Of a stretch of DNA of 64,000 nt, positions 39,039 to 58,205 are shown piece by piece. The stretch is from Amycolatopsis endophytica. GTDB lineage: Bacteria > Actinomycetota > Actinomycetes > Mycobacteriales > Pseudonocardiaceae. The translations under genes and the position numbers were made by a program. Position 1 is the first letter of the stretch; every line of letters starts with the position of its first letter. Under the pieces are notes generated by a model, which had not been told where the DNA came from, ran no database searches, and worked only from the letters and a program-made list of their open reading frames with translations. The stretch is taken from NCBI RefSeq assembly GCF_013410405.1, contig NZ_JACCFK010000001.1:2790001-2854000 (forward strand). The letters run 5' to 3'.

Positions 39039-40274
39039 CTACGAGGGCCGCGTTCCGAGCAAATGGTGCGCCTCCAGGGCGATCTGCATGGTCAACCGTT
39101 CCTCGGGCTCGCCCAACCGGTCCCCGAACAGTTCGGTCAGTTGCGAGACCCGGTACCGCACCGTCTGCGGATGGATGTCCAGCAGCCGCGCGATGTCCAC
39201 AGTGTTCCCGTTGCACTTGAGCCACGCCAGCAGCGTCTCGGCCAACCGCAACTGCTGCTTGGGTGTCAACGAAGCGAAGGGCGCCAACGTCCGGGAAGAC
39301 AGTTCCTCCAGCAGGAACCGGTCCTGCAACAACCACAACGTCGTCAGGTGGTCCGAACTGTGCACCACCGGACCACCGGAAATCAACCCGGCCCGAACCA
39401 GCTCCAGTGTCCGGCGCGCCCAGTACAAGGACGTCGCGGCATCCGTCAGCCGGACACGGGGGCCGACCGCCGCCCGCCAGTTCGGCATTTCCGACTCCAG
39501 CACGGGAATATCCCGGGCAGGTACCGGGGTGATCAGGCACGGCTCGGCGCCTTCCAGGTCCAGCAACACGTCCTCGCTCAGGGGCGGAACGAAATGCTGC
39601 TCCTCCAACGGCTCCAGCGCGACGACGGTGACCCATTCCGGCACGTCCCACTGCGCGGCGCGGGCCATTGACGACACGGCCGACGGTGAGGACGGGGGTG
39701 TGGCGAGGATCAGTTCCAGCAGCCGGTGCCGCCGCCGTTCGAGTGTGCCCGTCGCCCGTGCCTGGGCCAGGGTGTACCCCTCGACCGAGTAGGACGATAT
39801 TTCGTCGACGTAGGCGAAAATGGCTTCGGCGCTGACGCACAGCATCGGCACCGGCAGGCGCATCGACTGACCGAAACCGGAAACGTAACGCCACGCCGCC
39901 TGCCCACCGGCGCGGTAGGCGGCCTGCAACGAGTTCAGGCTGCCGCCGTCGTGGTAGACGCGCTTGCCGACCTCGTGGAACATCTTGCCCCAGCGGTCCT
40001 GTGCGGCCTGCAGGTCCTCGATGCTGTCCAGGCAGCTCAGCACCGCCTGTTCGATCGCGCGCACGATGACCTCGCCGAACTGGCCCTCCAGCGGCTTGGC
40101 GTACTCGGGCACGGTGTGCTGGATCTCGTCGAGGATCTTCGTCGCCAGACGGTCCGCGTGCGGGCGGAACCGGCGGGCGAGCTCTGCGGGCAGCGAGAAC
40201 CACAGTCTGCGTGCCTGACTGGTTCCGGCCACCGTCCCCGCTCGCGGCGAGGCATCACTGCCGACACTAGCCAT
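39039..40274 (-). CDS. PucR/CdaR-family transcriptional regulator
   Basis: The ~411-residue protein carries the C-terminal PucR helix-turn-helix: LAETLLAWLKCNGNTVDIAR then LLDIHPQTVRYRVSQL, followed by FGDRL. The N-terminal half is a helical sensory region (SLNSLQAAYRAGGQAAWRYV) with a GGDEF-like middle portion typical of this group. The exact start is unclear (ATG 40274 or 40283). It is divergent from the MMPL exporter gene 175 bases away, so it may control that gene and the lipid cluster behind it. Confidence 0.85.
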   Translation of the reverse strand: MASVGSDASPRAGTVAGTSQARRLWFSLPAELARRFRPHADRLATKILDEIQHTVPEYAKPLEGQFGEVIVRAIEQAVLSCLDSIEDLQAAQDRWGKMFHEVGKRVYHDGGSLNSLQAAYRAGGQAAWRYVSGFGQSMRLPVPMLCVSAEAIFAYVDEISSYSVEGYTLAQARATGTLERRRHRLLELILATPPSSPSAVSSMARAAQWDVPEWVTVVALEPLEEQHFVPPLSEDVLLDLEGAEPCLITPVPARDIPVLESEMPNWRAAVGPRVRLTDAATSLYWARRTLELVRAGLISGGPVVHSSDHLTTLWLLQDRFLLEELSSRTLAPFASLTPKQQLRLAETLLAWLKCNGNTVDIARLLDIHPQTVRYRVSQLTELFGDRLGEPEERLTMQIALEAHHLLGTRPS

Positions 40275-40449
40275 GCCCAGCATCAACCCACATCCGCACA
40301 GCCCGCGCAACGATCACTCGCCCGACTGTCACGCCTGGACGGACCGGAGCCGGAAAATCTGTCACCGGTAAGCGAAAAAACACGTCACCCCTGTTCGCGG
40401 ACGGGTGGCCGTTGTTAGCGTGGCGACCCGCCGGCCGACGGGAGGAGGG

Positions 40450-42441
40450 ATGGCAGGACTCGCGTCGCGGTGCTTCCGGCACGCGCCCTGGGTGATCGCG
40501 GTGTGGTTGCTGGCGCTCACTGGGCTCGTGCTAGCCGCGCAGCACTCCGGTGCGGCGTACCGGGACACGGTCGCCCTGCCGTCCGCGGACAGCACGGTCG
40601 CGTCGGCCATGCTTCCTCCCGGCGACCAGGAACGCGTGGTCGTCGAAGCCGCGGGCACGATCGATACGGTCCGCGACCGCATCGAACCGCTGCTCGGTGA
40701 GCTGGCGGGTCTCGACCACGTCACCGGCGTCGTTTCGCCCTACGCCGCACCGGAGCTGGTGTCCGCGGACCGCCGGATCGCGGTGATAGCGGTGAGTTTC
40801 GACGCCCCGGCGGAGGAACTCGGCCCGGAACCGGCCGCCCGGCTCGTCGACACCGCGCGGGCCGTCGAGGGGGACGGCCTGACGGTCGGCGTGTCCGGTC
40901 AGCTCGCCGCGATGACGGTGGGCGCGCCGAACCTGGGCAACGCCGGGATCGGCCTGCTCGCCGCGGCGCTCGTCCTGCTGATCACCTTCGGCTCGATCGC
41001 GTGCGTGATCCTGCCGGTGGTGACCGCCGCGGTGTCGGTCGGCTCCGCGCTCGCCGTGGTCGTCGTGGTTTCGCACGTGATGACCGTTCCGAAGATCAGT
41101 ACGGAGATCGCCGCGCTGCTCGGGCTCGGGGTGGGCGTGGACTACGCGTTGTTCGTGCTCACCCGCTACCGGCAGGGCCTGCGTGAAGGTCTGCCCGCGG
41201 TCGAAGCGCTGGAACGCGCGGCCGCGACCTCGGGCCGCAGTGTGGTCTTCGCCGGTGTCACGGTCTGCGTTTCGCTGGCGGGGATGTTCACCGTGGGCAT
41301 GGCGTTCCTGAACGGCATCGCCATCACGTCGGCGATTTCGGTCGCCCTCACCATGCTCGCGGCGCTGACGCTCCTCCCGGCGCTGCTCCGCTTCGGTGGC
41401 ATGCGCACGCTGCCCAGGCACACCGCGTCCGGCGGGGGCTGGTCCTGGCTCGCGCGTTCCGTGACGCGGCGGCCCGCGCCCTACGCGATCGTCGCGGTGC
41501 TGGTCATCGCGGTACTGGCGGCGCCGGCACTGGGCCTGCGCCTGGGTATGCCGAGCGCGGGGCACGATCCGCCGGGCAGTCCGACACGCGTGGCCGACAC
41601 GCTGCTCACCGAGGGTTTCGGCCCGGGCGCGAACGGGCAGCTGGTGCTCGTCGCCGAACGGCCCGATCCGGCGGCGACGACCGCCGTGCGCGAGATCGTC
41701 GCCGAGCGAGCTTCCGTCGGACCGCCGCAGGGTCCGGTCCTGACGGTCACTCCGCGCACGGCTCCGGACGACCCCGCCACCGCGCAGCTGGTGTCGTGGC
41801 TGCGCGAGGTCGCGGGCCCCGGGTGGCACGTCGGTGGCGCGGTGGCGGTGCAGACGGACTTCTCGGCGACCGTCACCAGCAGGCTGCCGCTGTTCCTGGC
41901 CGCTGTCGTGGCGATCTCCGTGCTGCTGCTGGCGCTGGTGTTCCGCAGCGTGCTGATCCCGCTGACCGCGGCGGTGATGAACCTGCTCACCGCGGCCGCC
42001 ACGACCGGTGTGGTGGTGGCGGTGTTCGGCGGGCCGATCGAGCCGTACCTGCCGGTGTTCCTGTTCGCGGGCCTGTTCGGGTTGTCGATGGACTACGAGG
42101 TCTTCCTGATCTCCCGCATCCAGGAGGAATGGCGCCGCACCGGCGGCACCCGCACGGCGATCGTCGAAGGTCTCGTCTCGACCGGGCGGACCATCACCGC
42201 GGCCGCGTTGATCATGGCGCTGGTGTTCGCGGCGTTCGCGTTCGTGGACAGCCGGGTGGTGCGGGAGGCGGGTGTCGGGCTGACCGCGGCCGTGCTGCTC
42301 GACGCGGTCGTGATCCGCTGCCTGCTGGTGCCCGCCGTGATGGTGCGGCTGGGCCGGGCGAACTGGTGGCCCTCGCGCCGACGTGAGCATCCGGCCGCGC
42401 CGATTCCTGTCCCGCGTGACAAAGCCGGGCGGATCCATTGA
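40450..42441 (+). CDS. MMPL/RND-family membrane transporter
   Basis: The 663-residue protein has about 12 predicted membrane helices in the RND 1+5, 1+5 layout with two extracytoplasmic loops. MMPL signature regions are seen in the first half (LLGLGVGVDYALFVLTRYR) and the second (FGLSMDYEVFLISRIQEEW). These hold the Asp-Tyr pairs of the proton relay. Family members export lipids across the membrane. ATG 40450 is preceded by GGGAGGAGGG. It is the first gene of the 40-58 kb lipid-type block and is followed 32 bases later by the hydrolase. Confidence 0.9.
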   Translation: MAGLASRCFRHAPWVIAVWLLALTGLVLAAQHSGAAYRDTVALPSADSTVASAMLPPGDQERVVVEAAGTIDTVRDRIEPLLGELAGLDHVTGVVSPYAAPELVSADRRIAVIAVSFDAPAEELGPEPAARLVDTARAVEGDGLTVGVSGQLAAMTVGAPNLGNAGIGLLAAALVLLITFGSIACVILPVVTAAVSVGSALAVVVVVSHVMTVPKISTEIAALLGLGVGVDYALFVLTRYRQGLREGLPAVEALERAAATSGRSVVFAGVTVCVSLAGMFTVGMAFLNGIAITSAISVALTMLAALTLLPALLRFGGMRTLPRHTASGGGWSWLARSVTRRPAPYAIVAVLVIAVLAAPALGLRLGMPSAGHDPPGSPTRVADTLLTEGFGPGANGQLVLVAERPDPAATTAVREIVAERASVGPPQGPVLTVTPRTAPDDPATAQLVSWLREVAGPGWHVGGAVAVQTDFSATVTSRLPLFLAAVVAISVLLLALVFRSVLIPLTAAVMNLLTAAATTGVVVAVFGGPIEPYLPVFLFAGLFGLSMDYEVFLISRIQEEWRRTGGTRTAIVEGLVSTGRTITAAALIMALVFAAFAFVDSRVVREAGVGLTAAVLLDAVVIRCLLVPAVMVRLGRANWWPSRRREHPAAPIPVPRDKAGRIH

Positions 42442-42473
42442 GCAGCAAAGGTTTGATCGTTAGCGTCGGCACG

Positions 42474-44048
42474 ATGAAACACCGCGTGACCGCTGTCGTT
42501 CTCGCGTTGCTGGGCACCTTCCTGCCGGGTCTGTCCACTGCCGCCGACGGGTTCGGCACGGAATTCCTCGACATCCCCGCCGCCGACGGTGTCGCACTGG
42601 GATCGATGGTGATGGAGCCGTCCTCGCCGGGACCGCATCCGCTGGCCGTCCTCATCGGAGCGTGGGGCGGCGGGCGCACGCAGAACATCATCCCCGCCAA
42701 GGAACTCGCCGACCGCGGTTACGTCGTCATCTCCTACGGCGCGCGCGGGTTCGGCGAATCCACCGGTGAGGTCGAGGTCGCGGGCACCGAGGACATCACC
42801 GACGTCTCCACGGTGATCGACTGGGCGCTGCGCAACACCGATGCCGACCCGTCCCGCATCGGCGTCGGCGGCGTGTCCTACGGTGCGGGCATCGCGATGA
42901 TCGCCTCCGGGTTCGACGCGCGGATCAAGGCCGTCGCCTCGCTCAGCGGCTGGGCGGACCTGGTGGCGTCGCTGACGACGAACGACACCCGGCACGGGCT
43001 TGCCGGACTGGTGCTGTACCTGTCCGGCAAGGCCAACGGCACGCTCAGCGCCGAAACCGACACCATGCTGCGGAAGTTCCTCGAACCACGCATCTCCGAC
43101 GCCGACTCCGAGGCGGTCATCGACTGGGCGGAACCCCGCTCACCCGTCACGTACCTGGACCGGATCAACGCCAACCACCCGGCGGTACTGGCGATCCAGA
43201 CGTGGAGCGAGACGGTGTTCCCGCCGGACCAGATGGTGGACTTCTACCGGCGCCTGACCGGCCCGAAGCGCGCGGAGTTCGTGCCGGGCGACCACGCCGC
43301 GACCGAGTCCGGCGGCCTGCTCGGCCTGCCCAGTGACACCTGGACCTCGGTGTACCGCTGGTTCGACGCGCATGTGGCGGGCACCGACACCGCGATCGAG
43401 GACGAGCCGCCCGTGGTCACCCGCGCCCGGCCCGGTATGCGGCAACCCACGTACCAGTCCACTTGGGACGATGTGGTCGGCACACCGGTCCGGTCGTATC
43501 TCGGCGAAAAGACCCTCCAGCCGCAACCCGCCGAGTGGAGCCGGACCGTCGCCGCGAACCGCGACACCGTCGCGAACGGCGGGATCCCGCTCGCCACCTA
43601 CAGCCTGGAGGCGCTGACCGGGAACCCGCCGAACATCTTCCTGCCGCAGGTCGACCGTGGCAGCGCGGGGGTCTGGCACCAGGAGCCGGGGGAAGCGCCG
43701 GTGGAGATCCGCGGTTCGATGCACGCGCACCTGACCGTCGTCCCGCCAGGGGCGACCGGCACCGCCGTGGCCTACGTCTACGACGTCGACCCGTTCGGCG
43801 TCGGCAGCCTGATCAACTACCTGCCCTACAGCTGGAAGAACGCGACACCGGGACAACCGCTGGCGGCCGACTTCCACTTCGCGCCGACCGCCTACACCGT
43901 CGCGGCCGGGCACCACCTCGCGCTCGTCGTCGACTCGAAGGATCCGCTGTTCCTGGACTGGAACTCCGGCGACGGGCGGCTCGGTTTCGCCTCCACCACG
44001 GCCGATCCGGCCTGGCTCGACGTAGCAGTGCACACCGGGAGGGCTTGA
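42474..44048 (+). CDS. Secreted CocE/NonD-type alpha/beta hydrolase (X-Pro dipeptidyl-peptidase-like)
   Basis: The 524-residue product has a signal peptide (KHRVTAVVLALLGTFLPG, cleavage near STAA|DG). Its alpha/beta-hydrolase domain has the nucleophile S135 in GGVSYGAG and the active-site His in PGDHAATESG. A C-terminal jelly-roll domain (from ~390, GSMHAHLTVVPPGATGTAV) is typical of the CocE/PepX group. These enzymes cleave esters or proline peptides. It is joined end to start with the R2lox gene, so it is part of the same transcript. Confidence 0.85.
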   Translation: MKHRVTAVVLALLGTFLPGLSTAADGFGTEFLDIPAADGVALGSMVMEPSSPGPHPLAVLIGAWGGGRTQNIIPAKELADRGYVVISYGARGFGESTGEVEVAGTEDITDVSTVIDWALRNTDADPSRIGVGGVSYGAGIAMIASGFDARIKAVASLSGWADLVASLTTNDTRHGLAGLVLYLSGKANGTLSAETDTMLRKFLEPRISDADSEAVIDWAEPRSPVTYLDRINANHPAVLAIQTWSETVFPPDQMVDFYRRLTGPKRAEFVPGDHAATESGGLLGLPSDTWTSVYRWFDAHVAGTDTAIEDEPPVVTRARPGMRQPTYQSTWDDVVGTPVRSYLGEKTLQPQPAEWSRTVAANRDTVANGGIPLATYSLEALTGNPPNIFLPQVDRGSAGVWHQEPGEAPVEIRGSMHAHLTVVPPGATGTAVAYVYDVDPFGVGSLINYLPYSWKNATPGQPLAADFHFAPTAYTVAAGHHLALVVDSKDPLFLDWNSGDGRLGFASTTADPAWLDVAVHTGRA

Positions 44049-44981
44049 GTGACCACGACCATCCGAGAGGACTTCACCGCGCTGCGCGCCGGTGGCCTCA
44101 ACTGGGACGTCCTGCCGTTGCGGCTGTTCGCCAAGGGCAACGCGAAGTTCTGGAACCCGGCCGACCTCGACTTCGGCCAGGACGCGAAGGACTGGGCCGC
44201 CCTGTCCGACGCCCAGCGCTTCGCCGCGACCATGCTGTGCGCGCAGTTCGCCGGTGGCGAGGAAGCCGTCACACACGACATCCAGCCGTTCCTGTCGGCG
44301 ATGGCGGCCGAGGGCCGCTTCGGCGACGAGATGTACCTGACCCAGTTCTGCTTCGAGGAAGCCAAGCACACGCAGGTCTTCCGGTTGTGGCTGGACGCGG
44401 TCGGGGTCACCGGCAATCTGCACGAGCACGTCGAGGACAACCCGGGCTACCGGGCCATCTTCTACGACGCGCTGCCCACCGCGCTGGAGCGGCTCAAGCA
44501 CGATCCGAGCCCGGCCAACCAGATCCGCGCGTCGGTGGTCTACAACCACGTCGTCGAGGGCGTGCTCGCGCTGACCGGCTACTTCGTGTGGAACCGGGCG
44601 TGCCGCGCGCACGGGATCCTGCCCGGGATGCAGGAGCTGATCCGCCGCATCGGCGACGACGAGCGGCGGCACATGGCGTGGGGCACCTTCACCTGCCGTC
44701 GGCATGTCGCGGCCGACGACCGCAACTGGCAGGTCGTGCAGGACGAGATGCAGGCCCTGCTGCCGCATGCCATCGCGCAGATCGAGTGGACCACCAAGAA
44801 GCTCGACGGTGACCCGTTCGACCTGCGGCTGGACGGCGTGATGGAGTACGCCGCCGACCACGCGATGCGGCGGCTGAAGGCGATCGAGTCGGCCCGTGGC
44901 ACGCCGGTGGCCCAGATCGACCTGGACTACAGCCCGGAGCAGCTGGAAGAGGACTTCCACGACGAAGACGCGGCGAGGTGA
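44049..44981 (+). CDS. R2-like ligand-binding oxidase (R2lox)
   Basis: This 310-residue ferritin-like protein resembles mycobacterial R2lox (Rv0233), which carries a Mn/Fe site, binds a fatty-acid-like ligand and forms a Val-Tyr ether cross-link. All expected ligands can be placed with a constant +3 offset from Rv0233 numbering: E71, E104, H107, E170, E205 and H208. The cross-link pair is V74 and Y165. The R2-type radical tyrosine setting is absent. Start GTG 44049 follows the hydrolase stop without a gap. The substrate is not known, but its position next to lipid genes fits oxidation of a lipid chain. Confidence 0.9.
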
Positions 44982-44987
44982 GCGGCC

Positions 44988-46409
44988 GTGAACCCGGGCC
45001 GCACGCTGCTGATCGTCGCACTCGGCGCGTTCATCACGACGCTGGACAACACGATCATCGCCGCCGGTGTCCCCTCGATCGGGCACGCGCTGTCGCTGGA
45101 CCTGGCGACGCTGCAGTGGGTCAGCATCGGCTACATGCTGCCGTTCGCGGGTCTGCTGCTGGTCGCGGGCACGCTGGTGGACCGGTGGGGGCAGCGGGCC
45201 ACGCTGGCGGGCGGGCTGATCGCGTTCGGGCTGGGTGCCGCGGCTGGTGGCTTCGCGACCAGCGCCACGGTGCTGATCGCCGCGCGGGTCGTGCAGGGCC
45301 TGGCCGCGGCGTTCCTGGTGCCCGCCCTGCTCAGCCTGCTGCGCACCAATCTCGACAGCAGGCAGCGCGCCATCGGGGCGACGCTGTGGACGGCGTGTCT
45401 CGCGGTCGCGCTGGCGCTCGGCCCGACGATGGGCGGGCTGCTGTCCGAGTACCTGGGCTGGAGCTGGATCTTCTTCAGCAACCTGCCGTTCGTGCTGGTC
45501 ATGCTGGTGCTGCTGCCCGCGACCGCGGGGACCGGCCGGGCTCGCGAGGCGCGACGGCCCGCCGTGGCCGCGATGGTCCTGGTGACGGCCGGGCTGGTGC
45601 TGGTGGCCGCCGCGCTGGTCGGGCTCGGTGACGACGCGCGGCTCACCGAGACCGCGCCACTGCTCGGCGGTCTCGCCCTGATCGCCTGGTTCGCCATCCG
45701 GGAACGCCGCGCCCGCGATCCGCTCGTGCCACCGGACCTGACGCGGGAACGGGTTTTCACCGGCGCGCTGGCCGTGCAATTGCTGTGGGGACTCGGGGTG
45801 TCCGGGATCTTCTTCTTCACACCGTTGCTGCACCAGGATTCGCTGGGCCTGAGCCCGGTGGGCGCGGGGTTGCCGCTCGTCCTGGTCGCCGTGGCGATCG
45901 TGGCGGTCACGCCTGCCGTGCCGTGGCTGATGGCACGTCTCGGTCCACATCGGACGGTCTGCGTCGGGTTGCTGACGGTGGCGCTGGGATTGCTCGCGGT
46001 GGCCGCGATCAACCACATCCCCGAGGTGCCGCCGCGGATCCCGGGGCTGCTGCTGATCGGCGCCGGCTCGGCGCTGACCACGCCGCTGACGTCGTACTCG
46101 CTGGAGATCGTCGAGGAGCGCCACGCGGGCACGGCGTCGGGCCTGCTGACCGCGTCCAGGGAACTGTCCAGCGCCATGGGAGTCGCGCTGATCGGCGCGG
46201 TGCTGACGGCCGTGCGCGGCGCACGGCTCGGGGAAGGAGCGCTCGGGGGACCGGCGCTCGCCACGGGGTACACGGCCGGGCTACTCGTGGCAGCCGCTCT
46301 GGAAATCGCCGGTGCGGTGCTCGCGCTGTGGGTTTTCCGAGCCCATGTGGAAAAAGTTCTTCCCGTCGTGACAACGGGGTCCGCTGGATCCTCGTCCCGC
46401 GGTGAGTAA
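44988..46409 (+). CDS. MFS transporter, DHA2 (14-helix) family
   Basis: The 473-residue protein has about 14 predicted membrane helices. Motifs typical of drug:H+ antiporters are visible: TTLDNTIIAAGVPSIG in helix 1, the loop DRWGQR after helix 2, and ALGPTMGGLLSEYLGWSWIF as motif C. It starts six bases after R2lox. It could export a product of the cluster or confer self-protection. The cargo is not evident. Confidence 0.9.
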   Translation: MNPGRTLLIVALGAFITTLDNTIIAAGVPSIGHALSLDLATLQWVSIGYMLPFAGLLLVAGTLVDRWGQRATLAGGLIAFGLGAAAGGFATSATVLIAARVVQGLAAAFLVPALLSLLRTNLDSRQRAIGATLWTACLAVALALGPTMGGLLSEYLGWSWIFFSNLPFVLVMLVLLPATAGTGRAREARRPAVAAMVLVTAGLVLVAAALVGLGDDARLTETAPLLGGLALIAWFAIRERRARDPLVPPDLTRERVFTGALAVQLLWGLGVSGIFFFTPLLHQDSLGLSPVGAGLPLVLVAVAIVAVTPAVPWLMARLGPHRTVCVGLLTVALGLLAVAAINHIPEVPPRIPGLLLIGAGSALTTPLTSYSLEIVEERHAGTASGLLTASRELSSAMGVALIGAVLTAVRGARLGEGALGGPALATGYTAGLLVAAALEIAGAVLALWVFRAHVEKVLPVVTTGSAGSSSRGE

Positions 46410-46424
46410 GCCGGCCACGCCCGA

Positions 46425-46454: not shown

Positions 46455-46497
46455 CCGGCGCACGGATTTTCGGGCACGGAATCTTCCCGAGGGACTC

Positions 46498-48171
46498 ATG
46501 AAAGAGAATTCTTCGTTCGCGACCATGCTCGGATACTGGGCCCAGGCGCAGGCCGACGAGACCGCCGTGACGTTCCTGGACCACCGCACCAGTGCCGACG
46601 GGCACGCGATCTCCCTGACCTGGCGTGAACTCGACGAGCGGGTGACCGCGGTCGCGTTGCACGCCCGCGAACTCGCGGCGCCGGGCGACCGGGCCGCCGT
46701 CCTGGTCGCCCAGTCCGTGGACTACGTCGTGGCCTTCCTCGGCGCGATCCGCGCCGGACTGGTGGCCGTGCCGCTGTTCGCCCCCTCGCTGCCCGGCCAC
46801 GGCGACCGGCTCACCGCGGTGCTCGACGACTGCGAACCGGCGCTGGTGCTGACCACCGACGACGAGCGCGACGACGTGAAGGGCCTGGTGTCGGGCCCGA
46901 AGATCCTGGTGGTGGACACGATCCCGGCGGAGCCGGGAGAACACGAGTGGCCGGACCCGGAACCCGACGACCTGGCCTACCTGCAGTACACCTCGGGTTC
47001 CACGCGCGCCCCGGCCGGCGTCATGCTGACGCACCACAACGTCGTCACCAACGCTCGGCAGGCGCTGCGGGCGTACGGCGGGGAGCGCGGCACCACCTCG
47101 GCGGTGAGCTGGCTGCCGCTGTTCCACGACATGGGCCTGATCCTCGGCATCGGCGCGCCGGTCGTCGGCGGCCTGACCTCGGTGCTGATGGATCCGCTGG
47201 CGTTCCTGGAGCGTCCCGGGCGCTGGCTGCGCGCGTTGTCCGCGAGCCCGGGCGCGATCAGCGCGGCCCCCAACTTCGCCTACGCCTACAGCGCTTCGCG
47301 GGTTTCCGAGCGCGAGAAGAGCTACCTGGAGCTGAGCCGCGTGGTGTCGCTCATCAACGGCAGCGAGCCCGTTCTGCCGTCCACGGTCGCGAAGTTCCAG
47401 GAGTCCTTCGCCGAGTGCGGGTTGCAGCCGGAGGTGCACCGCGCGTCCTACGGGCTGGCCGAGGCGACCGTGCTGGTGTCGGTCACCGACGCCGGGCAGC
47501 CGTCGCGGCAGGTCACGTTCGACCGGGACCGGCTCGCCGCGGGCACCGCCGTCCCCGCCGCCGGTGGTGCGACGACGACCCTGGTGTCCTGCGGCCGGGC
47601 GGTCGACCAGGAGATCCGCATCGTCGATCCCGGCGGTGCGGTGGTGCCGGACGGCACGGTCGGGGAGATCTGGGTGCACGGGCCGAACGTCGGGCAGGGC
47701 TACTGGAACCGCCCGGACTCGGTCTTCGGCCGGAGCCTGCCCGGCGCGGGCGGTGACTGGCTCGCCACCGGTGACCTCGGGGTCGTCTTCGAGGGCGAAC
47801 TGTTCATGACCGGACGGCTGAAGGACCTGATCATCGTCGACGGCCGCAACCACTACCCGCAGGACGTCGAGCAGACCGTCGAAGCGCACCCCGTCGTCCG
47901 GCCCCACTCGGCGGCCGCCTTCTCGGTGCCGGGCGAGGACGGTGAGGTCGCGGTGGTCGTGCTGGAACGGGCGCGGCAGGCCGAGGCCGACTTCGACGAG
48001 GTCGCGGCGTGGCTTCGGGCCGAGGTGTCCGCGGTGCACGGACTGCGGTTGCGTGAGGTCGTGTTCACCGAACCCGGTGAGGTGCCCCGCACGTCGAGCG
48101 GCAAGATCAGCCGCGCGCTGTGCAGGCGGCGTTACCTCGACGGATCGCTCGACGCGCGGCGGCTCGCATGA
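46498..48171 (+). CDS. Long-chain fatty-acyl-AMP ligase (FAAL, FadD32-like)
   Basis: The 557-residue adenylating enzyme has the P-loop YTSGSTRAPAGVMLTH near residue 163, the FAAL marker LPLFHDMGLILG, the ATP-site YGLAEATV and TGDLGVVFEGELF, and the C-terminal Lys in TSSGKISRALC. FAALs form acyl-adenylates and load them onto an ACP domain. The TGA overlaps the ATG of the PKS gene (ATGA at 48168-48171). Its partner is therefore most likely the N-terminal ACP of that PKS, as FadD32 does for Pks13. Confidence 0.92.
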   Translation: MKENSSFATMLGYWAQAQADETAVTFLDHRTSADGHAISLTWRELDERVTAVALHARELAAPGDRAAVLVAQSVDYVVAFLGAIRAGLVAVPLFAPSLPGHGDRLTAVLDDCEPALVLTTDDERDDVKGLVSGPKILVVDTIPAEPGEHEWPDPEPDDLAYLQYTSGSTRAPAGVMLTHHNVVTNARQALRAYGGERGTTSAVSWLPLFHDMGLILGIGAPVVGGLTSVLMDPLAFLERPGRWLRALSASPGAISAAPNFAYAYSASRVSEREKSYLELSRVVSLINGSEPVLPSTVAKFQESFAECGLQPEVHRASYGLAEATVLVSVTDAGQPSRQVTFDRDRLAAGTAVPAAGGATTTLVSCGRAVDQEIRIVDPGGAVVPDGTVGEIWVHGPNVGQGYWNRPDSVFGRSLPGAGGDWLATGDLGVVFEGELFMTGRLKDLIIVDGRNHYPQDVEQTVEAHPVVRPHSAAAFSVPGEDGEVAVVVLERARQAEADFDEVAAWLRAEVSAVHGLRLREVVFTEPGEVPRTSSGKISRALCRRRYLDGSLDARRLA

Positions 48172-51100
48172 CCGGCCTCCGTGCCTGGCTCGTGGACCGG
48201 GTGGCCACGACGCTCGGCGTACCCGCCTCCGAAGTGGACCCCGGCAAGCCGCTGCAGGAGACCGGACTGTCCTCACGGGACGCGATGACCCTGACCGGCG
48301 ATCTGGGGCAGCTGCTCGGTCGTTCGCTGCCCGCGACGCTGGTGTGGGAGCACCCGACGATCAACGAGCTGGTCGCGGCGTTGTCCGAGGTGGACACCGG
48401 CGGCGGAGCGCAGTGGACGCCGGAGCCCGGTGAACCGATCGCCGTCGTCGGGATCGGCTGCCGGATGCCCGGCGGTGCCTCGTCGCCGGAGGAGTTCTGG
48501 CGATTCCTCGAAACCGGCGTCGACGGCATCAGCGAGGTCCCGGAAGGCCGCTGGGAGTCGTTCGCGCCCGCCGGTGCGATGGCCGGGCTGCCGCGCCGGG
48601 GCGGGTTCCTCGACGACGCCATCGGCTTCGACGCCGCCTTCTTCGGCATCACACCGCGTGAAGCCGAGGCGATGGACCCGCAGCAGCGGATGTTGCTGGA
48701 GGTCGCGTGGGAGGCGCTGGAGCACGCGGGCATCGCGCCGTCGTCGCTGCGTGGCACGCGGACCGGTGTGTTCGTCGGGTTGTCCGCCAGCGAGTACGGC
48801 TACCTGACGATGACCGACGTCACGGCCATCGACGCGTGGTCCGGCACCGGCGCGGCGGCCAGCATCGCGGCGAACCGGCTGTCCTACCTGCTCGACCTGC
48901 GCGGTCCGAGCCTGACGATCGACACCGCGTGCTCGTCGTCGCTGGTCGCGCTGCATCAGGCCGTGCAGAGCCTGCAGCGCGGCGAGATCGGCACCGCGCT
49001 GGTCGGTGGCGTGAACCTGCTGCTCTCGCCGGGGATCACGGCGAACTTCGCCGAGGCCGGGGTGCTCGCCGCGGACGGCCGGTGCAAGCCGTTCGACGCC
49101 GGTGCCGACGGCATCGCGCGTGGCGAGGGCTGCGGTGTGGTCGTGTTGAAGCCGCTGCGCGCGGCCCGCCGGAACGGTGACCGGGTGCTGGCGGTGGTCC
49201 GGGGCAGCGCGGTCAACTCCGACGGCCGGTCCAACGGCATCACCGCGCCGAACCCGGAAGCGCAGGCAATGCTGCTGCGCGACGCCTACGCCGCCGCGGG
49301 TCTCGACCCGTCCGTCGTGGACTACGTCGAGGCGCACGGCACCGGGACGTTGCTCGGCGATCCGATCGAGGCATCGGCCCTGCGGCGGGCGCTGGGCCGG
49401 GACGCGAACCGTCCGCTGCTGCTCGGCTCGGTCAAGAGCAACCTGGGCCACCTGGAGGGCGCGGCGGGAATCGCCGGCCTGATCAAGGTCGTGCTCGCGT
49501 TGTCGCGGCGGCGGTTGCCGCCGAGCCTGAACTACCGGGAGCCCAACCCGCACATCGACTTCGACGGGCTGCGGGTGGTCACCGAGTCGTCCGGCTGGCC
49601 GCGGTACTCGGGTGTCGCGCGCGCGGGCGTGTCCGCGTTCGGCTTCGGCGGCACGAACGCGCACGTGGTGCTGGAGGAGTGGCCCGTCACTCCACGGTTC
49701 ACCGAAACCGGCGGGCCGCACGTCTTCGCCGTGTCCGACCGGTCCGCCGACGGCCTGCGGGACCGGGCCGGAGAGTTGGCCCGCTGGGTGGAGTCGTCGG
49801 ACGTGCCGCTGACCGCGGTGGCCTCGACGCTCGCGCACCACCGGGAGAACCTGCCGGTGCGCGGCGCGGTCGTGGCGTCCACCCGGGACGAGCTGGCGGC
49901 GGCCCTGCGTGGCCTGGAACCGGGGCAGGGCAGGCTCGACGGGGTCGTGTTCGTGTTTTCCGGCTACGGTTCGCAGTGGACGGGCATGGGTCGCGCACTG
50001 CTGGACACCGAACCGTCGTTCGCGGCCGAGGTCGACCGGCTCGACCCGGTGTTCCGCGCGGAGGCCGGGTTCTCGTTGCGGGAGGCGCTGGCCGGTGAGC
50101 CGCCGGACCTCGCCGCGACCCAGCTGACGTTGTTCGGCATTCAGGTCGCGCTCGCCGGGCTGTGGCGCGCGCACGGCGTGACGCCCGCCGCGGTGCTGGG
50201 CCAGTCGATGGGTGAGGTCGCGGCGGCCGTGGTCGCCGGGGCACTAGACCTCGCCGACGGGTTGCGCGTGATGGCGTCCCGCGCGCGGCTGCTCGGCGAG
50301 ATCGACGCGGCGGGTGCCGGATCGATGGCCGTCGTCGAGGCGTCCGCGGCCGAGATCGAGGAGTTCCCCGGTGTCGCGGTCGCGGTGTACGCGTCGTCGA
50401 CGCAGTGCACGGTGACCGGCGAGGCCGACGCGGTCGCGGCGCTGGTGTCGCATGTGGATGGGCAAGGACGGTTCGCGAAGCTGCTGCCGGTCAGCGGCGC
50501 CGGGCACTCGCCCGCCGTCGACGCGATCCTCGACCGGTTCCGGGCCGGGTTGAGCGTGCGCGCGGGCGGCCCCGAAGTGCCGTGCTACACCAGCGTGCTC
50601 GACGATCCGCGGGACAAGCCACTGTTCGATGTGGACTACTGGGCCGCGAACCTGCGCCGTCCGGTGCGGTTCGCGCAGGCGCTGGCCGCGGCGATCGAAG
50701 ACGGTTACGGCACGTTTGTCGAGATCTCCCCGCACCCGGTCGCGCTCGCCGCCGTCGAACAGGCCGGGGGAACCGGGCTGCCCAGCGCCAGCCGCAGGAC
50801 CGACGAGCGGCTCGCGTTCCTCACCAGCCTGGCGCGGCTGCACGTGCTGGGGCATCCGTCCGCGCTGCTGGCCCGCGAGCCGAAGCAGCCGGTCGCGGAC
50901 CTGCCCGGCAAGGTGTGGCGTCACGAGCGGTTCTGGCCCCGGCGGCGGGTTGTGGGCGACCACCCGCTGCTGGGTGTGCACGCGGAGGTGCCCGGCTCGT
51001 CGCAGCGCGTGTGGCGTGGCGAGGTCGGCACCGAGCGGCATCCGTGGCTGGCCGACCACGCGGTCTGGGGCACGCCGATCTTCCCGGCGACCGGGTTCGT

Positions 51101-54100
51101 GGAGCTGGCGCTGTCGGCCGCGGGCCGCTACCTCGCCGACGTCGAGCTTCGGCAGGTGCTGCCGCTGCCGCCCGAGCAGGAGGTCACGACATCGCTGGCC
51201 GACGGCGTGATCAGCGTGCACACCAAACCTGGTGACTGGGTGTGCCACGCGACCGCCCGGGCAGCGGACGAGACAGCGCTGGAGCCGCTGGGCCGCGTCG
51301 AGGGTGAACCGGTCGACCTGTACGCCGCGCTGGACGCGATGGGCATGAGCTACGGGCCCGCGTTCCGGCTGTTGCGTGAGGTCAGCGCGGTGTCCGGGCG
51401 GGCGTCGGCGTCCATCGACACGCCGAAGGCCGCTGGTCACGTCCTGCACCCGGCGCTGGCCGACGCGTGCCTGCACGCGCTGGCCGCCGCGACCGGAGCG
51501 GCCCTGCGGGAGGCGGACGGGCTGTTCCTGCCGCTGGCGATCGGGGCGGTCTCCGTCGCCGGTGACCCGCTCGCGGGCGTGCGAGTGGACGCGGTCGTGG
51601 ACTCGCTGTCCGGCGACGATCTGCGGGGAACGGTGCAGCTCGTCGCGGCCGACGACACGGTGGTGGTCGAGTTCCGTGACGTGCACGCCCGCCGGTTCCA
51701 GCGCACCGCGATGCCGGTTCCGTTGCCCGCCAAGCTGTTCGAAGCGACCTGGACGCGCACCGATCTGCCGGACGCGGTCGAGGAGGACCGGACCTGGATC
51801 GTCCTGCACGACGGCGACCCGGGCCTGCCGCACGGTGAGGACCGCGTTGTGGTGGTTCCGCCGCACGACCGTCAGACGCTGCGTGCCGCGCTGGCGACCC
51901 GGCCCGATGGTGTCGTGCTGTTCGCCCGCACCGAGGGGCCGGACCTGGTCCACGAGGTGAGTCAGGTGGTGGCCGAAGTGGCTGAGTCACCGACCCGCTT
52001 GTGGCTGGTCACCGGTTCGGCCACCGCGGTCGAGGACGGTGAGGCGGGCCGGCCGGAGCTGGCGTGTCTGCGGGCGCTGGTCCGGGTACTCGCCTTCGAA
52101 CACCCCGAGTTGCACGCGAGCCTGGTCGACGTCGACGCCGAGTCGTTGCCCGCCCTGTTCGACGAGCTGCGCGCGGACGGCCCGGACGACGAAATCGCCT
52201 GGCGTCGCGGCGTCCGGCACACCCGGTGGCTGACCCGGCCGCACCTCGGGTCGCCGGAGCGGCCTGCCGTGCGTGAGGGCGCGTACGTGATCACCGGTGG
52301 ACTCGGCGGGCTGGGCCTGGTCGCGGCGCACTGGCTGGCCGAGCGTGGCGCGACCAGGATCGTCCTGTCCGGACGCACCGCGCGGGAGGTCGACGTGCCC
52401 GGCGCTGTCGTGGTAGCGGGTGACATCGCCGAACCCGGTGTCGCGGAACGGCTTGTCGAAGCCGCGACCAGCGGAGGAGTTCCGCTGCGTGGAGTCCTGC
52501 ACGCGGCGGGTGCGCTCGCCGACGGTGCCGCGGCCGCGCTGACCCCCGAGCAGGTGGCGAAGGCGTGGCGCCCGAAGGCGGAGGGCGCCTGGCGGCTGCA
52601 CGAGGCCACCCTGGACCACGACCTGGACTGGTGGCTGGTCTACTCGTCGGCCGCCGCGTTGTTCGGCTCGCCGGGACAGGCGGCCTACGCGGCCGCGAAC
52701 GCCTACGCGGACGCGCTGGTCACGTGGCGACGTGCCCACGGCCTGCCCGCCGCGACGATCAACTGGGGCGCGTGGGGCGAGGCCGGGGCCGCGGTCGGCA
52801 CGACCAACCCGGTGCTCGAACCGCTCGGCACCGCTGAGGCGATGGAAGCGCTGGAGGCGGTGCTGACCCGCTACCGTGTGGCCACCGGCATCGCGCGACT
52901 CGACGCGGAGGCAGTGCTCGACCTGTTCCCGAGGCTCGTCGAGCGGCCGTTCTTCGACCTGCTCGTGCCCCGCCGCGCGGCGGCCTCCGCCTGGTCCGGC
53001 CTGGATGCGCTGGAACCGTCGACCGCGCACGCCGCCATCGCCGACCACCTGACCGCACTGGTCGCCGGGCTGATGGGTTTCGCACCCGAGCAGGTCGACC
53101 GGCACGTACCGCTCACGCAGCTCGGGCTGGACTCGCTGCTCGCGATGCGCGCTCGCGGTGCGGTCGAGCGGGACTTCGGCCTGCCGCTGCCGGTGCCGAT
53201 GCTGCTGCGGGGCGCGAGCCTCGCCGAGCTGGCCGCGCACCTCGCGGAACAGGCCGGATTCGAGAGCGGCCCCGCCACCGTGACCGAGGTCGTCATCGGG
53301 CCACGGGATCCCGCCGAACGCTGGGTCGCCCGGCACTGGCAGGACGTGCTCGGCCGCGTGCTCGGCGTGCACGACGAGTTCCCTGGCGACCGGAACCGGC
53401 TGCGGCAGGCGATGGCGGCCGAACTGGAGACGGTGCCGGAGAACCTGTTCGAGCGGCCCACGATCGCCGCGATGGCCGACCTGCTGCGGGGCGCGATCGA
53501 AGGCGACGGCCCGATGCGGTGCCTGCGGAAGGGAACCGGTACGCCGATGTTCCTGTTCCACCCCGCGGGCGGCCCGGCAAGTGTCTACACGCGACTGGTC
53601 CACGACCTGCCCGGTGACTGGCCGGTGTACGGGTTCGAACGCCTCGACGACCTGGACACCGTCGAGGCCAAGGCCACTCGCTACCTGGAGATGATCCGCG
53701 AGATCCAGCCGCACGGGCCGTACCGGCTCGGCGGGTGGTCGTTCGGCGGATGCCTCGCCTACGAATGCGCGAAGCAGCTCGACGAGCCGGTCGAGCTGGT
53801 GTTCCTGATCGACACGATCCTGCCGCTGCCCAGCGACGCGCCGGCCGAGGACCTGCTGCTGGACCGGTTCGACCGGTTCGCCACGCACATCGAGCAGACC
53901 TACGGTGTCGCGCTGGACATCCCGCGCGACGAGCTGGCGCGGCTCGGCGAGGGCGAGCAGATCGGGCTCGTCATGCGTCAGCTCGAAGAGAAGGTGCCGG
54001 GTCTCGGGCAGGGTGTGCTGCACCACCAGTACACGTCCTATGTGGACGCGCGCGTCGCCGAGCGGTACACCCCGCAGCCGTGGGACGGCCGGGTGGTGTT

Positions 54101-54302
54101 GTTCCGCGCCCAGCAGCCGCACCCGCTGACGACCACGCTCGACCCGCGCTACCTGCGCGACGACGAGGCGCTGGGCTGGGACGAGTTCTGCCCCGGCCTG
54201 GAGATCGTCCGGGTCCCCGGCGACCACGTCTCGATGATCGACCCGCCGCACGTGACCGTGATCGCGGACGCGCTCGCCGACCGGATCACAGGGAAGAGGT
54301 GA
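48168..54302 (+). CDS. Pks13-like type I polyketide synthase with DH and KR domains
   Basis: The 2044-residue protein has this order. An N-terminal ACP has S36 (TGLSSRDA). The KS (~90-510) has C255 (DTACSSS), H390 and H428. The AT (~585-880) has S680 (GQSMGE) and the second motif SGAGH (776-780). The DH (~925-1170) has H964 ([10 protein letters not shown]) and D1099. The KR (~1370-1540) has TGGLGGLG and the tyrosine of [13 protein letters not shown]. An ACP has S1656 (LGLDSLLAM). A degenerate ACP-like segment (~1716-1780) lacks the serine. A C-terminal thioesterase has S1858 (GGWSFGG). Pks13 has ACP-KS-AT-ACP-TE only. Claisen condensation of two acyl chains followed by reduction is inferred. 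Confidence 0.92.
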
Positions 54303-54309
54303 GGACGCG

Positions 54310-55890
54310 GTGGACATCCCGTTCGCCCCGACGACGGCCTACCGGATCGCCGATCTGGCCGCGCGCCACGATGAGGCCGTGCGCATCGCCGAAAAGCGCG
54401 CGATCGACCGGCAGCACGCCAAGGGCAAGCTGACCGCGCGTGAGCGCATCGAGCTGCTCGTCGACGAAGGCTCCTTCGTGGAGCTGGACCAGTTCGCGCG
54501 GCACCGGTGCACCGAGTTCGGCATGGAGGGCAACCGGCCCTACGGGGACGGTGTCGTGACCGGTCACGCCACCGTGGACGGACGGCAGGTCTGCCTGTTC
54601 TCGCAGGATTTCAGCGTGTTCGGCGGCAGCATGGGCGAGGTGTTCGGCGAGAAGGTCCTCAAGGTGATGGACCTGGCGCTCTCGCTCGGCTGCCCGGTGA
54701 TCGGCATCAACGACTCCGGCGGCGCACGTATCCAGGAAGGCGTGGTGTCGCTGGCCTACTACGCCGAACTGGGGCGGCGCAACGCCCACGCGTCCGGCGT
54801 GATCCCGCAGATCTCCATGATCATGGGTCCGTGCGCCGGTGGCGCGGTGTACTCGCCGGCGATCACCGACTTCACCGTGATGGTCGACGACACCTCGCAC
54901 ATGTTCGTCACCGGACCCGACGTCGTGCACGCCGTCACCGGTGAGCGGGTCACCGCGCAGCAGCTCGGTGGCGCGGCGGTGAACAGTGAGATCTCCGGCA
55001 ACGCCCACCACCGCGCGGCCGACGAGCGCGACGCGATCGACTGGGTGCAGACGCTGCTCGGGTACCTGCCGCTCAACAACCTCGACGCGCCACCGGAATA
55101 CGACGACGACACCGTCCACGAGATCACCCCGTCCGACCTCGAACTGGACCGCCTCGTGCCGGACTCGCTCAACCAGGCCTACGACATGGCCGAGGTGATC
55201 AGGCGGATCGTCGACGACGGCGAGTTCACCGAGATCCACAGCGCGTTCGCGCCCAACATGATCTGCGCGTTCGGCCGGGTGGAGGGGCGTTCGGTGGGGA
55301 TCGTGGCGAACCAGCCGCGGTACCAGGCCGGGGTGATCGACATCGACGCGTCCGAGAAGGCGGCCCGGTTCGTGCGGTTCTGCGACGCGTTCGGCCTGCC
55401 GATCCTGACGCTCGCCGACGTGCCCGGTTACCTGCCCGGCACCGATCAGGAACGGCAGGGCGTCATCCGCCGTGGCGCGAAGCTGATCTACGCCTACTCC
55501 GAGGCGACGGTGCCGAAGGTGACCGTGGTGACGCGTAAGGCGTACGGCGGCGGTTACGCGGTGATGGGGTCCAAACACCTCGGCGCAGACGTGAACATCG
55601 CCTGGCCCACCGCGGAAATCGCGGTGATGGGGGCGGAAGGTGCGGTCGGCGTGCTGCACCGGCACGAACTGGCGCGGCTGTCCACTGAGGAGCGTGAGGT
55701 GGCGCGGCAGCGGTTGACCGAGGAGTACCGCAAGCACCACGCGAGCCCGTACCTGGCCGCGGAGCGCGGGTACGTGGACATGGTGATCCCGCCGTCGCAG
55801 ACGCGCCTCCAGGTCGCCCGTGCACTGCGGACGCTGCGCACGAAACGGCAGACGCTCCCGGCGAAGAAACACGGCAACATCCCACTCTGA
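54310..55890 (+). CDS. Acyl-CoA carboxylase carboxyltransferase (AccD4/PccB-like) beta subunit
   Basis: The 526-residue carboxyltransferase has both crotonase-like halves: [17 protein letters not shown] and [17 protein letters not shown] in the N-half, and [14 protein letters not shown] with [14 protein letters not shown] in the C-half. It would transfer CO2 from biotin to an acyl-CoA, giving a 2-carboxyacyl extender for the adjacent PKS. It starts eight bases after the PKS stop. In mycobacteria AccD4 has this position behind Pks13. The biotin-carrying alpha subunit is not in the window. The acyl chain-length preference cannot be judged by eye. Confidence 0.92.
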
Positions 55891-55908
55891 AACCCGCGAG
55901 GAGAACGA

Positions 55909-56910
55909 ATGAGAACCGTTCGGGCCGGGCGCCGACGACGCCGCTGGGCCTCGCTGCTGACGCTGCCCGTCGTCGCCATGATCGCCGGTGCCGCGCTGGC
56001 CGCACCGGTGTCCGCCGCCACGGTCAGCGCCGACGATGGAGCGAAAGTGGTCACCGAGACCTGGATCGACGACCGCACGGTCGATCTCGAGATCGATTCG
56101 CCCGCGCTGGGCACGACCGGCATGGTCCGGCTGATCGTGCCGGTGAACTGGCGCGCCGAACCGACGCGGACGTGGCCGACGTTGTGGTTGCTGCACGGGT
56201 GCTGCGAGCCGGTGGACTACCGGTCGTGGGACCAGTTCACCGACGTCAAGGCGTTCACCGCGGACAAGGACGCGATCGTCGTGATGCCCACGGACGGTCC
56301 GGCCGGCATGTACACGAAGTGGTGGAACTTCGGGTTGAAGAGCACGCCCGACTGGGACCGGTTCCACACCGAGGAGGTCCGGCAGATCGTCGAGCGCGGC
56401 TACCGCGGCGGCACGAAACGGGCGATCGCGGGTGTGTCGATCGGCGGTTACGGCGCGCTCGCGTATTCCTTCCTGCACAAGGGAATGTTCGGTGCGGCGG
56501 CCTCGTACAGCGGTATCCCGAACACGTTGTTCCCCGGCACGCCCGAGGTGATCCAGGGAATCCTGGTGCGGGCGGGGCACTACAACTTCTTCGACCTGTG
56601 GGGCGACGAGAAGGCGAGCTTCCCGATCTGGTGGTCGCGCAACCCGTACAACCACATCGACGACCTTCGCGGGGTCGAGCTCTACATCTCCTGCGGTGAC
56701 GGCCGGACCGGCCCGCTCGACCCGCCGGGGCAGTCCGATCCGCTGGAACCGGCGGCGCTGCTCACGTCCAGGAGCTTCACAGACAAGCTGAAGCTGATGG
56801 GCGTTCCGGCCACTGTGGACTACTACGGCGCGGGCACGCACAGCTGGCCCTACTGGGAACGGGCACTGCACGACTCATGGCCGGTGCTCGCTCCCGCGCT
56901 CGGTTTGTAA
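55909..56910 (+). CDS. Secreted antigen-85-like esterase/acyltransferase
   Basis: The 333-residue protein has a twin-Arg-rich signal region (RRRRRWASLLTLPVVAMIAG, cleavage near PVSA|A). The alpha/beta-hydrolase body has S177 in GVSIGGYG, a likely acid in SCGDGRTG and His in GTHSWPYWE. These mark the esterase-D/antigen-85 family, which includes mycolyltransferases. It starts 18 bases after the carboxyltransferase gene. Transfer of the PKS-made acyl chain to a sugar or wall acceptor outside the cell is an inference from context. A plain esterase is the alternative. Confidence 0.88.
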   Translation: MRTVRAGRRRRRWASLLTLPVVAMIAGAALAAPVSAATVSADDGAKVVTETWIDDRTVDLEIDSPALGTTGMVRLIVPVNWRAEPTRTWPTLWLLHGCCEPVDYRSWDQFTDVKAFTADKDAIVVMPTDGPAGMYTKWWNFGLKSTPDWDRFHTEEVRQIVERGYRGGTKRAIAGVSIGGYGALAYSFLHKGMFGAAASYSGIPNTLFPGTPEVIQGILVRAGHYNFFDLWGDEKASFPIWWSRNPYNHIDDLRGVELYISCGDGRTGPLDPPGQSDPLEPAALLTSRSFTDKLKLMGVPATVDYYGAGTHSWPYWERALHDSWPVLAPALGL

Positions 56911-56932
56911 CGGGAATCTCCGGAGGTATTTT

Positions 56933-58156
56933 GTGATGAAGAACCGCAGTTTCCGGCGGCGGCTGCTGGCCGCGCTGGTGGGGGTGGCGCTCGCGGCGGG
57001 CGGCGCGGTGGCGACCATGACGGCGCCGGCCGCGGTGGCGGCCGGCCCGGTGATCCCCGGCCCGCTCGACGACTCGTTCTACAGCCCGCCGTCACCGCTG
57101 CCCGCGGGCCAGCCGGGTGACGTGATCCGCTGGCGCCCGTCGGTGCCGATGATGAACGCGGCGAACGCGGACGCGTGGGAGGTGATGTACCTGTCGACGA
57201 ACGCGCTGGGGGAGCGCAACGCCGTCACCGGCACGATCATGGTGCCCAAGGGCGTGGACCCGTCGACGGCGCCGATCGTCGGGTTCGCCGTCGGGACGCA
57301 GGGCCCGGCCTTCAAATGCACCCCGTCGAAGGCCATCTCGCGGGGGACGCTCTACGACCAGCCGGCCATCAACGACTCGCTGAGCAGCGGGTACGCCGTG
57401 GCGGTGACCGACTACGAGGGTTACTCCCCGAACACGGTGCCGACGTACATCACCGGCCAGTCGATGGGCCCGGCCGTGATCGACTCGGTGCGGGCCGCCC
57501 AGCGCCTCGCACAGGCGGGCCTGTCCGAGGACTCGAAGGTGATCTTCCAGGGCTACTCCCAGGGCGGCGGCGGCGCGCTGTGGGCCGCCGAGAAGCAGCC
57601 GTCGTACGCACCGGAGATGAACCTGGTCGGCGTGGCGGCAGGCGGTGTGCCCGCGGACCTGACCGAGGTCGCCAAGGGCCTCGACGGCTACCTCGGGTTC
57701 GGCTTCCTGGCCTTCGCCGCGGTCGGCCTGGACGCGGCCTACCCGGAGCTGGACCTGGACTCCTACCTGAACGACACCGGCCGCACCGAACTGGCGGACG
57801 CCAAGGCGAACGCGTGCGTGGTGGAACTGCTGGCCAACTACCCGTTCAAGAAGATCAGCGACTACACCACGTCCAACCCGCTGGACACCCCGCAGTGGCA
57901 GGCGCGCCTGGCGGAGAACAAGCTGGGCTCGGCACCGCCGCGGGTGCCGGTGTTCCAGTACCACGCGGCCACCGACGAGATCGTCAACACGCCCCAGGCG
58001 GACGCGCTGCACAAGCAGTACTGCGCGGCGGGGGTGACCGAGCAGTGGCAGACCTACGTGTCCGACCACCTGAGCGGGATCTTCGCGGGCAACGGGGACG
58101 CCCACCAGTGGATCGTGGACCGGTTCGCGGGCGAGGAAGCGCCGTCCAACTGCTGA
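56933..58156 (+). CDS. Secretory lipase (LIP family)
   Basis: The 407-residue exported protein has a signal peptide (KNRSFRRRLLAALVGVALAA, cleavage near VAA|GP). Its lipase nucleophile is S209 in FQGYSQGGGG, a probable acid is in TDEIVNTPQAD and the His in DAHQWIVDRF. This pattern is that of the secretory lipase family (pfam03583). Cysteines in FKCTPSK, ANACVV, QYCAAG and the C-terminal SNC may form disulfides. GGAGG (56922-56926) fits either GTG 56933 or ATG 56936. It is the last gene of the lipid cluster. Confidence 0.88.
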   Translation: MMKNRSFRRRLLAALVGVALAAGGAVATMTAPAAVAAGPVIPGPLDDSFYSPPSPLPAGQPGDVIRWRPSVPMMNAANADAWEVMYLSTNALGERNAVTGTIMVPKGVDPSTAPIVGFAVGTQGPAFKCTPSKAISRGTLYDQPAINDSLSSGYAVAVTDYEGYSPNTVPTYITGQSMGPAVIDSVRAAQRLAQAGLSEDSKVIFQGYSQGGGGALWAAEKQPSYAPEMNLVGVAAGGVPADLTEVAKGLDGYLGFGFLAFAAVGLDAAYPELDLDSYLNDTGRTELADAKANACVVELLANYPFKKISDYTTSNPLDTPQWQARLAENKLGSAPPRVPVFQYHAATDEIVNTPQADALHKQYCAAGVTEQWQTYVSDHLSGIFAGNGDAHQWIVDRFAGEEAPSNC

Positions 58157-58169
58157 GGTGCCGATGACG

Positions 58170-58201: not shown

Positions 58202-58205
58202 TCTT

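Follow-up and report, generated by a model that had tools for sequence, protein, structure and literature searches.

A 64,000-nucleotide stretch of Amycolatopsis endophytica DNA (contig NZ_JACCFK010000001.1, positions 2,790,001 to 2,854,000; hereafter the window), from a 7.2 Mb genome in two contigs, carries on its forward strand a run of genes at 40450-58156 that includes a polyketide synthase (PKS) related to Pks13. Gene calls together with Pfam and NCBIfam scans assign these, in order, to an MMPL-family transporter (40450..42441; PF03176, 262 bits; its open reading frame, ORF, is open from 40405, the likely start being ATG 40450 after GGAGGAGGG), a CocE/NonD (S15) family hydrolase (42438..44048; TIGR00976, 82.9 bits, cut-off 66.3), the R2-like ligand-binding oxidase R2lox (44049..44981; NF006199, 550 bits, cut-off 286), a DHA2-like MFS transporter (44988..46409; PF07690, 166 bits), a fatty acyl-AMP ligase (FAAL; 46498..48171; PF00501, 215 bits), the PKS (48168..54302), an acyl-CoA carboxylase beta subunit, AccD (54310..55890), a secreted mycoloyltransferase-family esterase (55909..56910) and a secreted LIP-family lipase (56933..58156; PF03583, 201 bits), the last two with signal-like N-termini as judged by eye. 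From the spacing we infer a single operon: apart from an 88-base gap ahead of the FAAL gene, no two neighbouring genes are separated by more than 22 bases, and some overlap. The gene order FAAL, PKS, AccD, antigen-85-like esterase is as a preliminary description of the window had given it, and all four genes lie on the forward strand. The MMPL gene does lie upstream, as also stated there, but it is separated from the FAAL gene by those for the CocE/S15 hydrolase, R2lox and the MFS transporter; that description did not include R2lox, the LIP lipase gene downstream of the esterase gene or the third, degenerate carrier of the PKS.

The synthase has the predicted layout ACP-KS-AT-DH-KR-ACP-degenerate ACP-TE (acyl carrier protein, ACP; ketosynthase, KS; acyltransferase, AT; dehydratase, DH; ketoreductase, KR; thioesterase, TE), and the catalytic residues looked for are present. 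Its true start is probably ATG 48168, where the start and the FAAL stop share the four bases ATGA; translation from there gives a 2044-residue protein; the closest relative, from Amycolatopsis thermalba, has 2045 residues and 86% identity. Counting residues from the ORF opening at 48120, ACP1 (48186..48383; PF00550) has its phosphopantetheine serine at Ser52, the KS (48432..49682) has C271, H406 and H444, and the AT (49947..50846) has S696 (GQSMGE), H796 and the specificity motif GAGH. The DH (50961..51710; PKS_DH_N 68 bits, PS-DH 85 bits) contains HxxxGxxxxP with H980 and D1115, and the KR (52278..52778; 170 bits) contains residue 1486, S1510, Y1523 and N1527, with TGGLGGLG as its cofactor loop. 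These are followed by ACP2 (53007..53249; Ser1672 in LGLDSL), a carrier-like domain without a phosphopantetheine serine (53271..53504) and the TE (53544..54299; S1874, H2036). Both built-in reductive domains of the preliminary description are thus found by Pfam domain search, its H964 and D1099, numbered from ATG 48168, being H980 and D1115 here. No enoyl reductase (ER) domain was found in the PKS by Pfam.

The preliminary description had proposed a KS phylogeny as a check on the kinship of the synthase, and in that phylogeny the PKS groups with Pks13 and outside the MAS clade. The KS tree comprises 68 of the 110 KS domains found, near-copies, partial and off-family rows having been omitted; Amycolatopsis was thinned to 6 rows in addition to L105 and the window, and 5 of the 15 Rhodococcus/Prescottella rows were retained. 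In it the window family clusters with Pks13 (46 rows, 100/99), apart from MAS/Pks2, modular and other PKSs, and a quick KS+AT tree of 64 rows likewise groups the window PKS with Pks13 (SH-aLRT 100); outgroup sampling in both trees is limited. An origin of Pks13 from a DH/KR-bearing ancestor was considered: the KS tree places Pks13, on a long branch, within the reducing family (94/95 and 90/89), but approximately unbiased (AU) tests did not reject monophyly of the reducing relatives (p 0.128 for KS, 0.412 for the KS+AT quick tree). Within this KS sampling the sequence trees establish that the window PKS is kin to Pks13. A profile of the degenerate carrier, built from 54 matches that include no canonical Pks13, hits the corresponding position in 20 of 21 canonical Pks13 sequences (E 1e-8 to 1e-4) and gives E 0.034 for the 21st, which is truncated by the locus end. 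This element is common to the window family and canonical Pks13, and therefore supports common descent beyond the KS.

The relatives fall into three grades. Rhodococcus/Prescottella and mycobacterial-type Pks13 have neither DH nor KR. In relatives from Streptosporangiaceae, Nocardiopsis and Streptomyces the KR keeps its residues, apart from one Nocardiopsis row that lacks the Asn and one locus that is cut, and what is left of the DH does not include the full catalytic pair. The third grade consists of 36 Pseudonocardiaceae rows in which the DH His (36/36), the DH Asp (34/36, Glu in two) and the KR Lys, Tyr and Asn (36/36) are kept. Across the order, the Pks13 model is exceeded at its cut-off in 6 of 61 genomes; the host genome has no match at 1e-250.

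The nature of the extender unit is suggested by AccD. Its best structure match is MccB (SamR0483, the stambomycin carboxylase; 822 bits, versus 784 for propionyl-CoA carboxylase), and it has the small residue in place of Phe161 and the Ala in place of Asp421 looked for in medium- and long-chain carboxylase beta subunits: Gly155 lies at the MccB Gly161 site, which is Phe in propionyl enzymes, and Ala417 at the site of the MccB Ala and PccB Asp421, a predicted long-chain-type pocket. The pocket pair is Gly/Ala in 31 and Ala/Ala in 3 of 34 family rows, and Gly/Ala in 41 and Ala/Ala in 4 of the 45 distinct rows from all loci (an initial 59-row set contained repeats). Next to six canonical Pks13 genes it is Gly/Ala in five cases and Ser/Ala in one. 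The other four carboxyltransferases found in the host genome all have Phe at the first site, and their second-site residues are Asp, Ile, Tyr and Tyr. The AT motif of the window PKS is GAGH, as in 42 of the 45 other non-Pks13 rows, and 15/15 Rhodococcus/Prescottella Pks13 sequences have GASH. According to an excerpt of PMC6490886, ATs that take exotic alkylmalonyl-CoAs typically have small residues at this motif; an AGH motif is not mentioned in an excerpt of PMC6164871. Near the PKS, 5/6 Streptosporangiaceae and 2/3 Streptomyces PKS loci have a crotonyl-CoA carboxylase/reductase, and the Nocardiopsis locus has a partial match at its end; the two such enzymes tested both score above the curated cut-off. 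Two unrelated suppliers of alkylmalonyl-CoA thus stand beside one type of synthase, which indicates an alpha-alkyl product.

Among esterase-family structures, the window esterase is closest in both sequence and fold to mycoloyltransferases (Ag85/CMyt). S177 and H311 (HSWPYW) are invariant in 24 rows and E280, the likely acid of a Ser-Glu-His triad, is kept in at least 90%. The order FAAL-PKS-AccD-esterase recurs in Amycolatopsis, Actinokineospora, two further genera (g26 and g46) and one genome from another family of the order (f13), whose PKS also has DH and KR; because of this recurrence chance assembly is excluded. Among 200 Pseudonocardiaceae genomes the esterase occurs in 84 and the PKS tail in 63, all 63 having both (Fisher value 4e-34, overstated since the genomes are related; for a match split in two, only one piece was counted). 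Moreover, 71 of 85 PKS tails have an esterase no more than 15 kb away, where about 0.7 pairs would be expected by chance assuming a mean genome of 7.5 Mb. Of 41 Pseudonocardiaceae and Actinopolyspora loci found via the esterase, 37 have a PKS and 33 an AccD within the stretch examined. This locus set and the one fetched from further genomes appear to overlap, some genomes being in both, so that counts are not independent, and the regions of the second set were hand-chosen from matches. In four Actinopolyspora loci (L040-L043) and one g38 locus (L106) the esterase adjoins an MFS gene with no PKS nearby, the PKS tail of g38 genomes being located elsewhere in the genome. Five genomes (G054, G114, G124, G136 and G157) hold three PKS tails of the window type each, so several PKS variants may coexist in one strain.

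The role of the MMPL protein as exporter, as the preliminary description had it, fares less well. MmpL3 provides its nearest solved structures (178 bits), but an MMPL elsewhere in the host genome (G000:C1:3688522-3690105) scores higher with the MmpL3 model, and L093 and L094, the only fetched Pseudonocardiaceae loci with an MMPL gene next to FAAL-PKS-AccD, both belong to the genus of the window. A 35% relative is found close to an esterase copy without a PKS (L109), and MMPLs occur in three Streptosporangiaceae clusters and the Nocardiopsis cluster. The MFS gene is kept with the cluster more widely than the MMPL gene.

The window R2lox, besides exceeding its curated cut-off, has E71, E104, H107, E170, E205 and H208, which we take to be its metal ligands, and V74/Y165, presumably the cross-link pair; ligands and pair are kept in 12/12 sequences. 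NF006199 matches occur in 112 of the 200 Pseudonocardiaceae genomes, and in 14 genomes of four genera (g1, g26, g45, g46) an R2lox copy sits no more than 15 kb from both the PKS tail and the esterase, with about 0.3 R2lox-PKS pairs expected. CocE adjoins R2lox in all 11 fetched loci having R2lox; in three g16 loci (L103-L105) both are absent within the 20 kb fetched. A second R2lox, outside the operon (G000:C1:2565275-2566231), has a higher NCBIfam score than the operon copy. The physiological function of R2lox is stated to be unidentified in an excerpt of PMC6399176, and one member is reported to hydroxylate alkanes in an excerpt of PMC10867098. The operon copy may oxidise an alkyl chain of the operon lipid.

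Taken together, the operon is real, conserved and mycolate-like, with a reducing synthase. To a probability of about 0.6, we read it as encoding a Pks13-related condensation pathway with the reductive steps built into the synthase; in mycobacteria, according to an excerpt of PMC2568869, reduction is left to a separate reductase. In this predicted pathway the FAAL would activate a fatty acid as acyl-AMP and load it onto ACP1, while AccD, with biotin subunits encoded elsewhere, would convert a medium or long acyl-CoA to a 2-alkylmalonyl-CoA, the 2-alkylmalonyl unit of which the AT would transfer to ACP2. Condensation by the KS would give a 2-alkyl-3-oxoacyl chain, which the KR would reduce to the 3-hydroxy acid and the DH, if used, would convert to a 2-alkyl-2-enoyl chain. 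The TE would hand the chain to an acceptor, perhaps a sugar; the MFS or MMPL transporter would export the product; and the secreted mycoloyltransferase-type enzyme would move the acyl group to its final acceptor. One of the alkyl chains may be oxidised by R2lox in the clusters that have it. An alpha-branched, reduced or unsaturated lipid acted on outside the cell, as the preliminary description proposed, is still the best reading, as a prediction from sequence. The predicted product is a 2-alkyl acid that is either 3-hydroxylated or 2,3-unsaturated; retention of the DH favours the latter. The operon's product is probably a branched lipid other than mycolic acid and as yet undescribed; among the literature matches listed, from open-licence papers, there was no description of the cluster, of a DH/KR-bearing Pks13 relative or of R2lox in such an operon or otherwise linked to a lipid operon.

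Several observations weigh against this pathway. Family models are undershot: the best-scoring model for the PKS is that of Pks13 (NF040607), at 1287.8 bits against a cut-off of 2100, the FAAL reaches 522 bits with the FadD32 model NF038339 (cut-off 975), and the MMPL, with 201 bits against 1400 for NF052608, is rejected as a member of MmpL3. The degenerate carrier is weak in Streptosporangiaceae relatives (E 0.0035 to 0.014, four rows). The DH may not be functional everywhere, because the Gly of its HxxxG motif is replaced in 10 of the 36 Pseudonocardiaceae rows and because a single-sequence search missed the domain in two Pseudonocardiaceae loci (L044 and L107). The esterase may have other uses, since at the threshold used 21 of the 84 genomes bearing it have no PKS tail. 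Eight of the 41 esterase-found loci have no AccD in the stretch examined, and the four loci without a PKS near the esterase are all Actinopolyspora. Absence of both esterase and PKS tail from 6 of 11 own-genus genomes sampled implies that the gene set is dispensable. Finally, an excerpt of PMC10867098 calls octadecanoic acid an unlikely substrate of Geobacillus R2lox.

It is conceivable, if improbable, that the product of the cluster is instead a glycolipid antibiotic or surfactant that is secreted, e.g. an acyl-sugar macrodilactone of the glucolypsin, fattiviracin or cycloviracin type, with the mycoloyltransferase-type enzyme joining two acyl-sugar halves. The patchy presence of the cluster (63/200 genomes) suits a specialised metabolite, several Streptosporangiaceae and Streptomyces versions combine a KR and decayed DH with a crotonyl-CoA carboxylase and a glycosyltransferase, and glucolypsin is described in an excerpt of PMC4365757 as a glucose dimer with 2-methyl-3-hydroxy C18 chains. 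However, Pfam/NCBIfam scans recognised no glycosyltransferase among the operon genes, homologues above 120 bits of two cluster glycosyltransferases are not listed for any Pseudonocardiaceae locus examined, an active DH would remove the 3-hydroxyl needed for the glycosidic link, and the link of the glycosyltransferase-bearing sister clusters to glucolypsin is itself putative. Among the literature matches listed, no description of the glucolypsin, fattiviracin or cycloviracin gene clusters was found. The Streptosporangiaceae/Streptomyces clusters with a KR-bearing, DH-decayed PKS (L049-L055, L064, L079, L082), which hold varying sets of crotonyl-CoA carboxylase, glycosyltransferase, FAAL, MFS, MMPL and mycoloyltransferase-type enzyme, are possible glycolipid clusters.

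Less likely still are true short mycolic acids (2-alkyl-3-hydroxy) made with an idle DH and missed by the chemotaxonomic record, a reading with which the kinship to Pks13, the AccD4-like pocket, the mycoloyltransferase fold, the intact KR and the one Emb-type arabinosyltransferase in the host genome would agree; yet retention of the DH His and Asp in Pseudonocardiaceae, where distant relatives lost one or both, suggests that the DH is used, and, to our knowledge, absence of mycolates is a long-standing trait of Amycolatopsis. An iterative, methyl-branching synthase of the MAS/Pks2 kind using methylmalonyl-CoA is very unlikely in that, although MAS is the next best solved structure (868 versus 909 bits) and similar over KS-AT-DH, both trees place the PKS with Pks13, no ER was found, the Phe/Asp pair seen in propionyl-CoA carboxylases is missing from AccD, the AT has GAGH rather than YASH, and the score with the MAS/Pks2 model NF041183 (992 bits) lies below its cut-off of 2400.

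Upstream of and divergent from the operon, a PucR/CdaR-type (HTH_30) gene on the reverse strand (39039..40310; PF13556, 63.5 bits) is a candidate regulator of it, homologues of varying similarity lying near the cluster in many relatives among the fetched loci. Downstream, the forward ORF at 58158-59420 looks spurious, the better-coded frame being the convergent 58206-59393 on the reverse strand, which reads by eye like a FAD-dependent ferredoxin/rubredoxin reductase and has no match listed in the fetched loci. Elsewhere in the window, two 21-base tandem repeat arrays lie back to back at 38736-38861, after an SDR gene, and 26679-30885 contains a dehydratase large subunit gene and a diol dehydratase reactivase gene, a diol/glycerol dehydratase set that is presumably B12-dependent.

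If correct, the proposed Pks13-related pathway would place a mycolate-like lipid pathway outside the mycolate-making families, would bear on how mycolic acid synthesis arose, and would provide a concrete pathway in which to seek the R2lox substrate. A broader and rather doubtful proposal is that many of the actinobacteria regarded as free of mycolates produce a dehydrated analogue of them, a 2-alkyl-2-enoyl lipid, missed by assays that depend on the beta-hydroxyl, that Pks13 arose when a reducing synthase of this kind lost its DH and KR, and that R2lox is the oxygenase that finishes the lipid.

With respect to known systems, MccB shares with AccD the Gly and Ala of the acyl pocket, but feeds a modular macrolide PKS, whereas the window AccD stands beside a single module predicted to be loaded by a FAAL. 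The alpha-branched beta-hydroxy chains that glucolypsin-type compounds bear on sugars would fit the glycosyltransferase-bearing sister clusters; the window operon differs in having no glycosyltransferase and a DH that would remove the hydroxyl. Compared with the solved R2lox structures (7qbp, 3ee4, 4hr0), the window protein has all ligands and the Val/Tyr pair, but is a second copy tied to a lipid operon. FadD32 (5ey9, 437 bits) is among the nearest solved structures of the FAAL, together with 5d6j ('Acyl-CoA synthase', 442 bits) and FadD23 (421 bits). The likeness to FadD32-Pks13-AccD4 plus a mycoloyltransferase, the mycolic acid condensation system behind the waxy mycobacterial coat, had been drawn in the preliminary description and is upheld by the KS phylogeny, the degenerate carrier before the TE, the AccD pocket pair, the mycoloyltransferase fold and co-occurrence, in addition to the gene order FAAL-PKS-AccD and the N-terminal ACP. 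In contrast with that system, and with the Pks13 layout ACP-KS-AT-ACP-TE, the window synthase has DH and KR within it and GAGH rather than GASH in its AT, its operon includes R2lox and CocE, and its host lies outside the mycolate-making families. On these sequence features we file the system as Pks13-related, rather than as Pks13 itself.
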